DNA from: Akkermansia sp.
GTDB taxonomy: Bacteria; Verrucomicrobiota; Verrucomicrobiia; Verrucomicrobiales; Akkermansiaceae
Length of the DNA: 64,000 nt
Direction: 5' to 3'
Assembly: GCA_017435365.1 (NCBI GenBank)
Contig: JAFSFD010000023.1
Location: 1-64,000 of the forward strand
Part shown: positions 58,065 to 64,000 of the stretch, in pieces
Position numbering within the stretch: the first letter of the stretch is position 1
Layout of the letters: every line of letters starts with the position of its first letter
Translations under genes and position numbers: made by a program
Notes under the pieces: generated by a model
What the model saw: only the letters and a program-made list of their open reading frames with translations
What the model was told of the DNA's origin: nothing
Database searches by the model: none

Positions 58065-60917
58065 TTACTTGAAGATGACTTCGTTGAGGAAGCTGTGCTG
58101 CTTTTTCGGGTGGTGCAGCTTCACCTCGGTGGCTCCCGGATCCAGCTTGTAACGGCTCACATGTTCGCCTTCGCTGGTGAGAGTGGCACCGGAGACCTGG
58201 CACTGGATGTTACCTACGGTAATCAACTCCTGTGCTCCGGCGGGCACCGGCATGGTGACATCCAGTGCAGCCTTGCCGCAGAGGTAGGCTGTGGCGATAT
58301 CGCCATCGCTGATGCTGCGGGTATCGGTGTCGAAGGCATCTTCGGTGATGCCGATGTTGAAGATGGTGAGCTTCACCTCTTGCTCACTGTTGCCTGAATT
58401 GACCAGGTTCATGGCAGTGATTCGCTCGCGGGGCAACTGGTCCTTTTTCACGAAGATACGATGGTTCTTCACTTCAGCCTGTATCTGGTGCTCCTTGCCG
58501 GATTCCAGCGAGAGGGAAAGGTGCCCCCACTCTCCGATGTCTCCGTTTTCCAGATTCAGCTGTATCCACTCGGGAGCAATCGGGGTCGGAAGTCGCAGGG
58601 AGATGACGCCCTGCGGCTGAAGGCGGAATACTTCCATCACGCGGTTGATGCCGATTTCCGTATTGGTGGTATGGGCCGTCAGGTTGCAGCCCTCCACATT
58701 GGTGTCCACATAGGGGGGGAGTGAGCGGTTTACGGCAAACTCACAGATGGAGAGCCAATTCGGGCGCGGTGTCAGAATGCGGAATCGCACGTAGCGGGCG
58801 CGGAGCGGATTCTTCGAGAGGTCGACTACGGCCATGTTGCCATACTGGGGACTGCCCACCTGCTGCCAGGTGGCGCCATCGTCGGAGACTTCAAATATGC
58901 CGCAGTCGGGGTAATCCCGCTGGCGGGGGCCACCCATGACCATGCTGATGTTGTTGATGGAAACAGGCGAGCCGTGATCCAGGCAGTACCACTGGTCCTT
59001 TTTCTGGAATCCGTTGTTGGACCAGAATGTATTGGTGCGTCCGTCCTTGATTTTGGCGGCATCCTCATTCGGGTTGCCGCAGGAGGCGGTGAACCTGGCT
59101 TCCGGGCGTTTCTGCCCGGAAAGCTCGGCATACACGCGGGCATTCAGGTAGGAGAAGGCTGCATTTAACACCGGGGTCATGGCGTAGGCCGCCACTTCCA
59201 CATCGTCCACCATGCGCACACCGCTGCCGGACCACTCGCTGCGCAGGGTGGAGCGCATGTCGTAGAGCGCCTTCACCGTGTCGAAGAAGTAGTGGAAGAG
59301 GTATTCGTCCTTGGTGGCAAAGGCGGTCATGACGGAGGCTCCGGCCACCCCGCAGAGTTCGAATTGGTCGAGCCAGGGGCGGATTTCCTGGCAGAGCCCG
59401 GCCACGGGGTTGCTGGTGTGTTTGAGTTCGCGGGCCGCGCTTACCATGCGGTCGAACTCCAGCTGCAGCAACTGCCCGGCTTTCATATCCGGTTTATCGG
59501 CGGCGATGCTGTCGATGAACGCCTGGGCGGTGGGGGCGATATCGACCGATTCTTCGCGGAAATAGCCGTGGACATTCGGCAGCAGGTAGGAATTGTGGTC
59601 GCAGAATACCTTCATGGCTTCGCGGTGGCGCGGATAAAGGCGGCGCAGACCTGCTTCCCAGGTTGTGACTGATTCGAAATCATCAATATTCCAGGTATAG
59701 TTGGCCACACCGAAAAGACCGACCTTGCTGGCCTCAGCGTGTTCCATCGGGTTAGCCACAAAGCCGCTCATCTGCTCCTTCATTTCCGGGGCGGTGTCCA
59801 GCCCGTAGGTGCGGCCCATGGAAAGGCGGCTGCGTTTGAAGTCGTTGCAGGGCCAGTTCCACCAGATGAACGTGGGGCGCTGCACGCGCTCATTCACCCA
59901 CTTCTGCCCCGGGAGGGTGATATCGTGCACCACGGTGTCGCCTGTCCACATCACGGGGATGCTTTTATCCAGCCCGGAACCGAGGGTGCGCAGGAATTTA
60001 TCATTTGTCCAGCCGCGGTTGTAGCCCGTGGGACACATGATGAGGGTCTGGTTCACATCCGGATGCTTGCGGATGAAGTTTTCCAGAATGTAGTTCGTGA
60101 GCTGCACCTGGCGCTCAGCCTTGCCGATTTCGCCGCTGGAGTCATCTACCAGCACGCCGAAATCCCGCACCCCAAGGTCGTACATCTGCTTCAGCTTGGT
60201 GCAAAGTGCGTCCAGCTGGTTGCGGCCGCCGTTTTCCTGCCAGCGCACGGTGTTGGCAGGGTGAATCGCCCAGACAAAACGCACATAATTGCGGTGCGCA
60301 TATGCAATGAGGTCTTTCAATTCTGCGGCTTTTTCCTGGGGGTAGGGTTTGTAGCAGCCCTTGCCGTGGTGGTAGGGGTCGTCTTTCGGGGCGTAGATGT
60401 AGGTGTTCATCTTGTTGCGCCCCATGAAGCGGAAGATGGAGCAGCGGGATTCAAAGCTCCACGGTGCGCCGTAGTAGCCCTCCACCACACCGCGGGAGGG
60501 AAGGTCCGGCCAGTCTACCAGAATACCCATGGGCAGCTCGCCCAGCTGGGTTACCTCGCGCAGGCTTTTATCCGCAAATACGTCGTTATGCGCTATCGTG
60601 GCATCCTGCACATTGTAAAGCATCTGGATGATGGATTGCCGGGCATAGTAGCGCCCGGTCTCATCATTTGCGTAGATGGTGAGCTTGCCTGGTGTGATAT
60701 CGATGGCGTAGCCTTCCGGGACGTTGGGCAGGCGCTCCCATAGCCCTCCCTTACTTTCTGCGGTGCGCATGAGTATCTGCACCTCTTTCACCCGGGTGGT
60801 GACAGAGCGCATGCCGTTGTGCTGCGGCTGGGGATAAATGACTACCGCTTCGGCAGGCAGAAGCGAGAACAATGCGCAGGAGAGCGCGCAGAGTGCGGAT
60901 TTGAAATGCAGTTTCAT
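58065..60917 (-). CDS. Secreted GH84 beta-N-acetylglucosaminidase with F5/8 C (CBM32-like) domain
   Basis: 950 residues. Signal peptide about 1-24. The N-terminal GH84 accessory domain (about 25-135) leads to the catalytic barrel, which starts RGVVEGYYGAPW (142-153) and contains the catalytic Asp pair Asp258-Asp259 in VLVDDSSGEI. YTWNIDDFES is the late family motif. An F5/8 type C domain follows (about 610-740; KIKDGRTNTFWSNNG, PVSINNISMVMGG, ARYVRFRI). It removes terminal beta-GlcNAc from host glycans such as mucin, using the substrate's acetamido group. First gene of a GH84-GNAT-MBL operon. Confidence 0.93.
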   Translation of the reverse strand: MKLHFKSALCALSCALFSLLPAEAVVIYPQPQHNGMRSVTTRVKEVQILMRTAESKGGLWERLPNVPEGYAIDITPGKLTIYANDETGRYYARQSIIQMLYNVQDATIAHNDVFADKSLREVTQLGELPMGILVDWPDLPSRGVVEGYYGAPWSFESRCSIFRFMGRNKMNTYIYAPKDDPYHHGKGCYKPYPQEKAAELKDLIAYAHRNYVRFVWAIHPANTVRWQENGGRNQLDALCTKLKQMYDLGVRDFGVLVDDSSGEIGKAERQVQLTNYILENFIRKHPDVNQTLIMCPTGYNRGWTNDKFLRTLGSGLDKSIPVMWTGDTVVHDITLPGQKWVNERVQRPTFIWWNWPCNDFKRSRLSMGRTYGLDTAPEMKEQMSGFVANPMEHAEASKVGLFGVANYTWNIDDFESVTTWEAGLRRLYPRHREAMKVFCDHNSYLLPNVHGYFREESVDIAPTAQAFIDSIAADKPDMKAGQLLQLEFDRMVSAARELKHTSNPVAGLCQEIRPWLDQFELCGVAGASVMTAFATKDEYLFHYFFDTVKALYDMRSTLRSEWSGSGVRMVDDVEVAAYAMTPVLNAAFSYLNARVYAELSGQKRPEARFTASCGNPNEDAAKIKDGRTNTFWSNNGFQKKDQWYCLDHGSPVSINNISMVMGGPRQRDYPDCGIFEVSDDGATWQQVGSPQYGNMAVVDLSKNPLRARYVRFRILTPRPNWLSICEFAVNRSLPPYVDTNVEGCNLTAHTTNTEIGINRVMEVFRLQPQGVISLRLPTPIAPEWIQLNLENGDIGEWGHLSLSLESGKEHQIQAEVKNHRIFVKKDQLPRERITAMNLVNSGNSEQEVKLTIFNIGITEDAFDTDTRSISDGDIATAYLCGKAALDVTMPVPAGAQELITVGNIQCQVSGATLTSEGEHVSRYKLDPGATEVKLHHPKKQHSFLNEVIFK

Positions 60918-61001: not shown

Positions 61002-61571
61002 TTATGCTTTTCCAAAATATCGACGTGCCATGCGCTGCACGGCTTCATCCAGCTCGGCTGCGCGGGACGCGAAATCCTCTGCTGTCCACCAGGCCAGGGC
61101 GTCGGATTCATCTGAAACGATAAACTCTTCGTGCGGGGCTCGCAGCAGGTAGCGCACATCGTAGTGGTAGTGCTCAGGCTCTCCCCTGGCCGGTCGTGCC
61201 GGGATGCGGTGGATATCGATATCAAAAATCTCCGGGGATACGGGCTGAATGCCCTGGATGCCGCTTTCTTCCTCTGCTTCGCGCAGCGCCACGCGCAGTG
61301 TGTCCGGCTCACCATCGGCGTGGCCACCGGTCTGCATCCAGCGCTGCAGCTTGTGGTGCAGGGTGAGCAAGGCTTTGTCTCCTGCCGGGTTGATGAGCCA
61401 GGCTGACCCCGTCATGTGGCCTTCTGCATGGGTGCGTTCAAAGCAATCCGGTGTGTCGGCGATGAAACGCTGCATCCTGTCGGCTGTATCGTGCTGTTCA
61501 GGGTGCTTTTCGGCAAATATCTGCAGCGCTTTGCACAAATTTGCCCGCAAATTGTTCGGAATGGTGGCCAT
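61002..61571 (-). CDS. Nudix hydrolase
   Basis: 189 residues. The Nudix box GGHADGEPDTLRVALREAEE with following ESG is complete. An N-terminal extension (1-50) precedes the fold. No specificity motif is recognised; family members of this length hydrolyse nucleotide-sugars, dNTPs or isopentenyl-PP. The ATG is 9 nt after the -10 box. It is monocistronic. Confidence 0.88.
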   Translation of the reverse strand: MATIPNNLRANLCKALQIFAEKHPEQHDTADRMQRFIADTPDCFERTHAEGHMTGSAWLINPAGDKALLTLHHKLQRWMQTGGHADGEPDTLRVALREAEEESGIQGIQPVSPEIFDIDIHRIPARPARGEPEHYHYDVRYLLRAPHEEFIVSDESDALAWWTAEDFASRAAELDEAVQRMARRYFGKA

Positions 61572-61649: not shown

Positions 61650-61679
61650 TTGGCAATAGGTTGGGAAATGTGATAGTAT
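61650..61679 (+). promoter_or_regulatory. Possible promoter of the small lipoprotein genes
   Basis: -35 TTGGCA (61650-61655), 18-nt spacer, -10 TAGTAT (61674-61679). Leader about 50 nt. An alternative -10 is GATAGT (61672-61677). Confidence 0.45.
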
Positions 61680-61735: not shown

Positions 61736-61891
61736 ATGAAAGAAGTAATTCAGAACGTGGTGATGCGCAGTGCGCAGCTGGGGCTCATACTGGTGTGCAT
61801 GACTTGTCTCACCTCATGCAGCACGATTACCGGATTGGCAGGTTTTCTTATCGCACTTCCGTTCCGGCTGATAAACGCCATTATACCATAA
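61736..61891 (+). CDS. 51-residue lipoprotein
   Basis: 51 residues from the ATG at 61736. Lipobox LTSC with Cys27 after a hydrophobic segment, then a short hydrophobic tail (TGLAGFLIALPFRLINAIIP). The signal region is unusually long (26 residues) and includes charged start MKEVIQNVV. It lies 21 nt before the polycationic lipoprotein gene, probably in one transcript. Function unknown. Confidence 0.6.
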   Translation: MKEVIQNVVMRSAQLGLILVCMTCLTSCSTITGLAGFLIALPFRLINAIIP

Positions 61892-61912: not shown

Positions 61913-62356
61913 ATGTCCAGCACTCGTCAGTTCATACTTTGCCTGGTGGCTATGGCAGCTTGTCTTCTGACTGCCTGCCAGAGCGGCCGGGGAATAAAGT
62001 ACCATAACTTCCCGGATGCGGTCACCAACATCAATCAGGTGGATCCCGCATACCGTAAGTATTTTGCCGACCAGCAGGGTCGCAATTACAGCGCCGATGA
62101 CCAGCGCAAGGCACTGGCCGCCGCTATTCGCACCTCCCGCACTCCGGTTCCCGCCTATGTGCCGCGTTCCGCCATGGCTTCCTCGAAGAAGAGCATCCGC
62201 CGCCGTTCCTCAGTGCGCAGCAGTCGCTATGCTTCCTTGAAGCGTGGCAAGTCTGTGAAACGCCGCCGCGCAGTGGCCAGGAAACGCACCAGTGTTCGCA
62301 GCCGGCGTGCTGTGGCCAAGCGCAAGACCACCACTCGCCGCCGCCGCCGCGGTTAA
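61913..62356 (+). CDS. Lipoprotein with histone-like polycationic tail
   Basis: 147 residues. Lipobox LTAC with Cys22. Residues about 25-90 are ordinary (FPDAVTNINQVDPAYRKYF, SADDQRKALAAAIRTSRTPV). Residues about 91-147 are very rich in Arg, Lys and Ser with repeated RRAVAKRK/RRAVARKR blocks and end TTTRRRRRG. Such tails are known from histone H1-like and nucleoid proteins, but here a lipoprotein signal precedes it, so the tail would lie at a membrane. A strong terminator follows. Binding to LPS or another polyanion is an inference. Confidence 0.75.
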   Translation: MSSTRQFILCLVAMAACLLTACQSGRGIKYHNFPDAVTNINQVDPAYRKYFADQQGRNYSADDQRKALAAAIRTSRTPVPAYVPRSAMASSKKSIRRRSSVRSSRYASLKRGKSVKRRRAVARKRTSVRSRRAVAKRKTTTRRRRRG

Positions 62357-62381: not shown

Positions 62382-62417
62382 ATGCCTGGTTCCGTGAGGG
62401 AATCGGGCATTTTTTTT
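62382..62417 (+). terminator. Rho-independent terminator after the small lipoprotein genes
   Basis: A 12-bp stem with two G-T pairs (62382-62393 with 62399-62410) and a 5-nt loop, followed by a run of T (62410-62417). Confidence 0.85.
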
Positions 62418-62468
62418 GCTCTTCTGGTGAGACGAGCCTGCCAGGTGTATTCTGTTCCGCCTGCGTAT

Positions 62469-62526: not shown

Positions 62527-64000
62527 TTACATCAGGTCAATGGGAAGGGCCGTTCCTGTTTCGCCCAGAGTGAATGAGATGCCGAAGCCTTGCTCCTTCT
62601 TGCCGCCATTGTCACGCAGGAATACCGTGGCGCCGATGTACCAGGCGCCGGCGTGGCGGAAGAGTGAGTATTGCTGGATGGGGAAGCGCCCCTCGTTTTC
62701 TTCGTAATACAGCTTTACGGAGAATGTGTATTTTTCGCTGAGACGAATATTGGTGCGTACGTGGAACTGGCCGGAATTTTCCAGAATGGGGTGATCCTTG
62801 ATGGAGCGATACGAGAAGTAGGTTTCAAGCCATTCTGCGGGAATGATGCGAGTGCCGATGCTGTATTGCCAGAAGCCCTCGCCGTTTTTAATGGTGGGAG
62901 TCTGGGTAGTCAGATAAAAATCAAAGCGCTGGGACGGACTGAAATTGACGATGTTGTACAGGCTGGAGAAATCGTATTCCGAATTAGGGTTGTCTGCGTT
63001 ATAGTCGCAGAACATATTCCAGGTGAGGAACCTGATGGATTCACCGTCAACGCGGGATGTCAGGGTGTTCCTCATGCCGAGGCGCCAGATGTTCCAATTG
63101 CCCCAGCCATCGATACCTGCGAAACCGCAGAGGTCGAGCGGAACGGGGCTTGTGGTGCTGCCGCTCATGGTGCTTGACCACATATCAATCTGGGGAACGT
63201 AGTCGTTCGAAGAGGATATGCTGCCGCGGGAATAGTTTGCGTAGGGCTGAATGATATGGGTGAGCCCCTGAAGACCGAAATTCTTGTACTGGAAATTGGG
63301 GTACGTGTTGTGGAATTTGAGATTGAAATCGCAGCCAAGATAGCCTAGGAACCGGTTATCAGAACCTATACCGCCCACATCATAGTACCCCGTGTAGGCG
63401 CCGCCTGCTTTGGGGGTAATATTGAGGAATTTGAAGGCTGTGAGATTCGTGGTGAATTCGTGCGTAGTGTTGACTCGGAAATAGCTTTCAGTGTTCAGCA
63501 GCCGGGAGTAATACTCCTTCATTTCCTCATCTTTGACATGATCCAGCCGAGCTTCGAATTCCTTTCTGTTCTCCGTGGGCAGATACTGCCGCATGATACA
63601 GGCACTGTTATTCGTTTCGTAATTGATGCCCGTGTTGCCGATGGCGGTGCGCACTCGGTAGAACGAGGCTTCGAGGCGCTCGTCTGTCACATAATAGTCG
63701 TTCGGTGCAAAGCGTGTGTAAATCATGCTTTGCGTTGTATCTGTGGTGCGCACAACGCGGACGGTGTTGTCCGGCTTGTCATTGTTGCGGCTGATATCGG
63801 GCAGGAAGTCGCGGAGCATGTATCGGTCGCTCACGACGTTTACGTTGGTGGCGAGCTGCCATTTGGCGTGAGGATCGCCGCCCGGTTCCAGCTTCCACAG
63901 CGTTTTCAGACTGAAATAATAGCGTTTGTCGTCAATCGGGAGTCGTTCGCCGTCAATCGGGTTGATGGAAGAGTCCCGGTCATCGGCAAAATAGGAAGTA
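62527..64000 (-). CDS. lptD: LptD-like outer-membrane barrel (5' end beyond the window)
   Basis: Partial: the frame stays open through 64000, so the N-terminus is outside. The visible 491 codons are beta-strand rich with many Tyr/Phe (KRYYFSLKTLWKLEP, FRVNTTHEFTTNLTAFKFLN). GLTHIIQPYANYS matches the LptD signature before the last barrel strands, and WRLGMRNTLTSR continues it. LptD with LptE (lptE at 42851) inserts LPS into the outer leaflet. A different large outer-membrane barrel is the alternative. Confidence 0.72.
   Translation of the reverse strand, partial: TSYFADDRDSSINPIDGERLPIDDKRYYFSLKTLWKLEPGGDPHAKWQLATNVNVVSDRYMLRDFLPDISRNNDKPDNTVRVVRTTDTTQSMIYTRFAPNDYYVTDERLEASFYRVRTAIGNTGINYETNNSACIMRQYLPTENRKEFEARLDHVKDEEMKEYYSRLLNTESYFRVNTTHEFTTNLTAFKFLNITPKAGGAYTGYYDVGGIGSDNRFLGYLGCDFNLKFHNTYPNFQYKNFGLQGLTHIIQPYANYSRGSISSSNDYVPQIDMWSSTMSGSTTSPVPLDLCGFAGIDGWGNWNIWRLGMRNTLTSRVDGESIRFLTWNMFCDYNADNPNSEYDFSSLYNIVNFSPSQRFDFYLTTQTPTIKNGEGFWQYSIGTRIIPAEWLETYFSYRSIKDHPILENSGQFHVRTNIRLSEKYTFSVKLYYEENEGRFPIQQYSLFRHAGAWYIGATVFLRDNGGKKEQGFGISFTLGETGTALPIDLM

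Follow-up and report, generated by a model that had tools for sequence, protein, structure and literature searches.

The Braun lipoprotein (Lpp, PF04728) is a small lipoprotein whose basic C-terminus tethers the outer membrane to the cell wall. In Neisseria, the surface lipoprotein NHBA binds heparin and heparan sulfate through a tract rich in Arg (PMC5079597). NHBA begins with a disordered region, has its Arg tract in the centre and ends in a beta-barrel domain (PMC6104945). The mycobacterial protein HBHA binds the same two polymers through C-terminal Lys-rich repeats that differ between species; it is built from a hydrophobic domain, a coiled coil and Lys/Ala/Pro repeats, and is not described as a lipoprotein (PMC3293801). 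A further example is RcsF of E. coli, a surface lipoprotein whose positive charges are required for the sensing of LPS (PMC4942254). In RcsF the charged residues are five Arg/Lys within a short surface segment at the N-terminus, and the C-terminal domain is periplasmic. A polycationic binding segment on a lipoprotein is a known kind of arrangement, and is not in itself evidence for a new kind of system.

Here we describe an Akkermansia gene for a predicted lipoprotein with a long cationic tail. The gene lies in a window of 64,000 nucleotides, which is the whole stretch of DNA that was analysed, from a genome of 2.5 Mb. The original prediction described a clear lipobox (LTAC, Cys22), about 55 Arg/Lys-rich residues ending in RRRRRG, a preceding lipoprotein of 51 residues and a strong terminator at the end of the gene. 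Each of these can be found in the window, and the features of the locus are as follows.

61650..61679, + strand: probable promoter of the two-gene unit, TTGGCA-N18-TAGTAT with an extended -10 TG (consensus scan)
61736..61891, + strand: small lipoprotein gene, 51 aa, lipobox LTSC (Cys28), mature part of 24 aa, CSTITGLAGFLIALPFRLINAIIP
61913-62356, + strand: polycationic lipoprotein ORF, 147 aa, ATG start
61913..61975, + strand: predicted signal peptide and lipobox, residues 1-21 (LTA, then C); hydrophobic segment and lipobox kept in 43/43 homologues
61976..62149, + strand: mature core, Cys22 to Val79, two short predicted helices (residues 45-54 and 61-75); 17 invariant columns (n=43), pooled dN/dS ~0.05, AlphaFold2 helices at low to moderate confidence
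62150..62353, + strand: predicted disordered polycationic tail, residues 80-147, 29 K/R and 0 D/E; K+R 31-50% in 43/43, dN/dS ~0.23, pLDDT mostly ~50
62382..62418, + strand: intrinsic terminator closing the unit in the window's clade, 12-pair stem (62382-62410) and T-run, -19.7 kcal/mol

The protein resembles each of the systems above in part. Like NHBA, it is a lipoprotein, by prediction, with an Arg-rich tract of the kind that binds anionic polymers (PMC5079597). It differs from NHBA in its predicted layout, a short helical core followed by a terminal cationic tail, and no sequence homology and no Pfam or PDB match connects the two; the helices are followed by predicted disorder. As in HBHA, the cationic repeats lie at the C-terminus and differ from species to species (PMC3293801), but HBHA lacks a described lipid anchor and no homology was found. 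The likeness to RcsF is that of a lipoprotein with a positively charged segment, which in RcsF senses LPS (PMC4942254), whereas the charge of the Akkermansia protein is C-terminal and far larger. PF04728 has no match in the window's genome, and the family's proteins end in R, G or H, without the conserved terminal Lys by which Lpp can be linked covalently. The Lys/Arg/Ala/Ser/Thr composition is common to histone H1-like and HC2 tails, which differ from the Akkermansia protein in that the latter is a predicted exported lipoprotein without a family match.

The lipobox Cys is invariant in all 43 aligned homologues, across divergent signal sequences, and purifying selection on the core is strong. 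The ORF is thus a real gene and not a chance reading frame. The N-termini of the family follow the SPase II lipoprotein pattern, in which the n- and h-regions precede a lipobox with an invariant Cys; in the window's protein this is LTAC, with Cys22 after a hydrophobic N-terminus. Export and lipidation of the protein are thus supported by the sequence comparison, and so, to the same extent, is the earlier suggestion of a membrane anchor outside the cytosol. The residue after the Cys is Q in 40 of the homologues and S in the other 3. The lack of Asp at position +2 and the Gln after the Cys make the outer membrane the probable destination, by a sorting rule which is that of the E. coli Lol system and may not hold in Akkermansia.

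The region between the lipobox and the tail had been called a normal domain. A conserved core does exist, with the motif QVDPaYxxYFxxQ...DQRkA kept in the 43 aligned members and with invariant columns at C22, D35, V37, Q42, V43, D44, P45, Y47, F51, Q54, Q64, R65, A67, A71, T74, T77 and V79. However, this core has just ~58 residues and two short predicted helices, and does not look like a typical globular domain. AlphaFold2 predicts the two helices and then a disordered tail, at low confidence (mean pLDDT of 64 and 55 for two models).

The tail stands out within the window. Its best 55-residue stretch has a net charge of +28, against +15 for the runner-up among 59 greedy ORFs, and on inspection the runner-up is unconvincing as a gene. 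With the charge background taken from the window only, at 10% K+R, the binomial chance of 29 K/R in 68 residues is 2.5e-12; the tail of the least striking family member gives a p of 3e-5. Across the 43 members the tail varies from 42 to 93 residues in length, and the Arg share of K+R ranges from 0.2 to 1.0, while K+R stays within the limits given above. Repeat duplication alters the tail in some members. The pooled dN/dS values of core and tail (21 pairs) differ about as listed, and Lys-to-Arg exchanges in either direction make up 44 of the 148 changes at tail K/R positions, a share of 0.30 versus 0.15 for neutral single mutations; the nominal p is 5e-6, which overstates the significance since the pairs share ancestry. 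The consistently high K+R content, the contrast in dN/dS between core and tail, and exchanges at twice the neutral share indicate that the charge of the tail, more than its sequence, is under selection. The original prediction had proposed a comparison of homologues for just this distinction, and the answer is that the charge persists although sequence, length and the Arg/Lys ratio all change. To judge from these alignments, the protein offers a clear example from nature of a disordered arm, presumably secreted and used for binding, that is kept for its charge and not for its sequence.

Of 76 Akkermansia genomes searched, 50 match a profile of the family, with E-values of 1e-22 or better; the 190 genomes searched at the level of the order and the 388 at that of the phylum gave no match outside Akkermansia. 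Complete Akkermansia genomes of 2.7-3.5 Mb, which we infer to be the A. muciniphila group, have no match to the profile. Where the records of carriers are named, they are metagenome-assembled genomes from the gut of ruminants, deer, horse and rabbit, plus a few others. No match beyond chance was obtained to Pfam, NCBIfam, PHROG or PDB. The family appears to be real and uncharacterised and, among the genomes searched, restricted to animal-gut relatives within Akkermansia. Close relatives of a medically interesting gut bacterium carry it, while that bacterium itself appears to be without it. A phage origin was rejected, as phages and viral contigs gave no match. Two further candidates were rejected. 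Two of the 43 members match the heavy-metal/CpxP-like hairpin PF13801 with an E of 0.01, which is no more than chance would yield over the scans made, and a second, weak profile match throughout the genus (e.g. G000:C66:43021) is antisense to a gene that we take to be nuoD.

A small lipoprotein gene lies immediately 5' of the polycationic lipoprotein gene in 41 of 43 loci, with a gap of -10 to +33 nt, and in 16 of the 43 the two genes share a 4-nt ATGA overlap. This supports the suggestion that the upstream lipoprotein is a partner. The small lipoproteins have a mature part of ~19-25 aa with an LP motif, of which the Pro is invariant, as is the Cys (alignment A2), and the family scans gave no match for them beyond chance. 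The promoter-like site 5' of the small gene is probably a promoter: TTGGCA ... TANNAT is kept in aligned upstream regions of the window's clade and the rabbit clade, which are distant from each other, and TTGGCAN{15,19}TANNAT has a single match in the window, where 0.47 are expected. The small gene is present without the polycationic one in G086, G089, G001, G031 and G003, and the reverse holds at the loci L035 and L036. Even the divergent members in G082 and G088 retain the gene pair and the cationic tail. Among genomes without the pair, the search of the genus for the small gene returned small lipoproteins with the pattern SCNTIGGxGxDV (L145, L146, L147), which we named entericidin-like by eye.

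In 28 of the 50 carrier genomes a third gene, for a multi-pass membrane protein, lies directly 3' on the same strand, and at the loci read it starts 3 to 68 bases past the lipoprotein stop. The terminator of the window's clade is absent at this place in most relatives with the third gene. The membrane protein has 380-490 aa (L047, L049, L053, L038 and 25 further loci), and is reduced to about its second half, 215-250 aa, in the rabbit clade. One of these proteins has a weak match to PF09925 (DUF2157; E 7.9e-5, 22.8 bits against a cut-off of 32.4), and two others have none. The window's own genome has no match to the DUF2157-like gene, which appears to have been lost by its clade, so the polycationic lipoprotein does not need this protein.

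In a quick rpoB tree of 28 genomes the pattern of carriers requires two changes. It fits one gain and one loss of the family, with the loss in the clade of G086, G001, G003, G031 and G083, where the small lipoprotein gene is mostly retained. The early-branching G089 (L143, G089:C15:3000-7000) has its small lipoprotein gene immediately 5' of the DUF2157-like gene, and the polycationic one that separates them elsewhere is missing. Either G089 has lost the polycationic gene, or this gene was added to a two-gene unit that existed before it. It is possible that the gene order of G089 is the ancestral one.

The protein probably holds some negatively charged polymer, in the envelope or on the cell surface. 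We tentatively favour the explanation that this polymer belongs to the cell's own envelope, as LPS or peptidoglycan do, and that the protein is a lipid-anchored electrostatic arm for it, although we would place this slightly below an even chance. The polycationic lipoprotein and its tiny hydrophobic partner would be made from one transcript. The former would be exported and probably sit in the outer membrane, with its short, nearly invariant helical core beside the membrane, perhaps at a protein partner. The disordered tail of 40-90 residues would act as the arm, holding LPS or peptidoglycan, and its grip may stabilise the envelope or report on it. The coupling of the genes to those of envelope proteins fits an envelope role better than a host-directed one. 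RcsF, which depends on positive charges to sense LPS (PMC4942254), is a precedent, and the weak likeness of the third gene's product to DUF2157, a domain present in LiaF (PMC11237479), also speaks for it. On the other side, OmpA-like peptidoglycan-binding domains number ~2 per genome across the genus, with or without the polycationic lipoprotein, and the A. muciniphila-type genomes without the family imply that such an arm is not a general need of Akkermansia envelopes. Furthermore, glucosamine without the acetyl group, which makes it cationic, is reported from the peptidoglycan of A. muciniphila (PMC10688800). This would slightly weaken peptidoglycan as the ligand if the same holds in the carrier species, though A. 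muciniphila itself appears to lack the family. If the arm does bind LPS or the wall, it would brace or sense the envelope in a manner unlike the Lpp- and OmpA-type tethers. A more specific version, which we regard as doubtful, is a genus-specific module of three parts: an acylated hydrophobic peptide of ~24 residues, a lipoprotein whose ligand-binding part is selected for net positive charge, with Arg and Lys freely exchanged, and the DUF2157-like membrane protein. Together these might sense or brace an anionic envelope layer in Akkermansia of the herbivore gut.

The serious rival to an arm on the cell's own envelope is adhesion to host glycans. Here the lipoprotein would be flipped to the surface, where the tail binds sulfated or sialylated mucin, glycosaminoglycans or extracellular DNA. 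NHBA (PMC5079597) and HBHA (PMC3293801) set the precedent for binding of this sort, herbivore and rabbit gut is the source of the carriers, and the repeat duplications that alter the tail in some members agree with it too. We nevertheless consider it unlikely. The domain scans found no known surface-export signal or carbohydrate-binding domain, the A. muciniphila-type genomes, which live in mucus, have no copy, and the genes that share its operon encode a 24-aa lipoprotein and, in relatives, also a membrane protein. The Arg tract of NHBA is also insufficient for binding by itself (PMC5079597). If mucin were the ligand after all, the family would mark a difference of herbivore Akkermansia from A. 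muciniphila.

A further proposal turns the arm into a sensor or regulator of envelope stress: lying on LPS or peptidoglycan, it would be displaced, e.g. by cationic peptides, and signal through the core and, in some relatives, through the DUF2157-like protein. RcsF detects LPS through positive charges (PMC4942254), conservation is much stronger in the core than in the tail, and 28 of the 50 genomes have the three genes in a row, yet no sensor kinase or regulator was found at the locus and we think this improbable. DUF2157 does occur in LiaF of the Lia envelope-stress operon (PMC11237479), but the match is below the cut-off, and the window's clade has no such membrane protein, while the rabbit clade keeps about its second half.

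Tandem small lipoproteins with coupled translation also suggest a toxin-antidote or lysis pair, with the small protein as an entericidin-like or lysis-protein-like toxin and the polycationic lipoprotein as its antidote. The small protein has a weak match to spanins (E 0.021), and 1 of 43 homologues matches Lysis_col (E 0.03), but with so many scans both E-values are what chance would give. The genomes and loci named above, in which one of the two genes is present alone, show that the pairing is not obligate, and no entericidin family match was found; we judge such a pair very improbable. As for the histone-like character in the original prediction, the composition does recall histone H1-like tails, but a cytosolic DNA-binding protein whose N-terminus merely resembles a lipobox is hardly credible given the invariant Cys after divergent signal sequences, the lipobox of the partner and the lack of any DNA-binding family match in Pfam or NCBIfam.

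The wider neighbourhood contains three further genes, all on the minus strand. Convergent with the lipoprotein gene is an 813-aa, full-length gene (62527-64000, continuing to contig position 64968; L183:2528-4969) that from its sequence we take to be lptD; its C-terminal part has no significant Pfam match. A link to LPS assembly, for instance as an LptE-like partner, was rejected, since the gene is convergent, no lptD is found around the polycationic lipoprotein in relatives and the lipoprotein has no Pfam match. Upstream, a NUDIX gene (61002-61571) is kept in several clades (L031-L039, L149 and others), apparently including G003, where the polycationic lipoprotein is absent. Beyond it lies a gene for a GH84 beta-N-acetylglucosaminidase with an F5/8 type C domain (58065-60917), a plausible enzyme of mucin or other host glycans.
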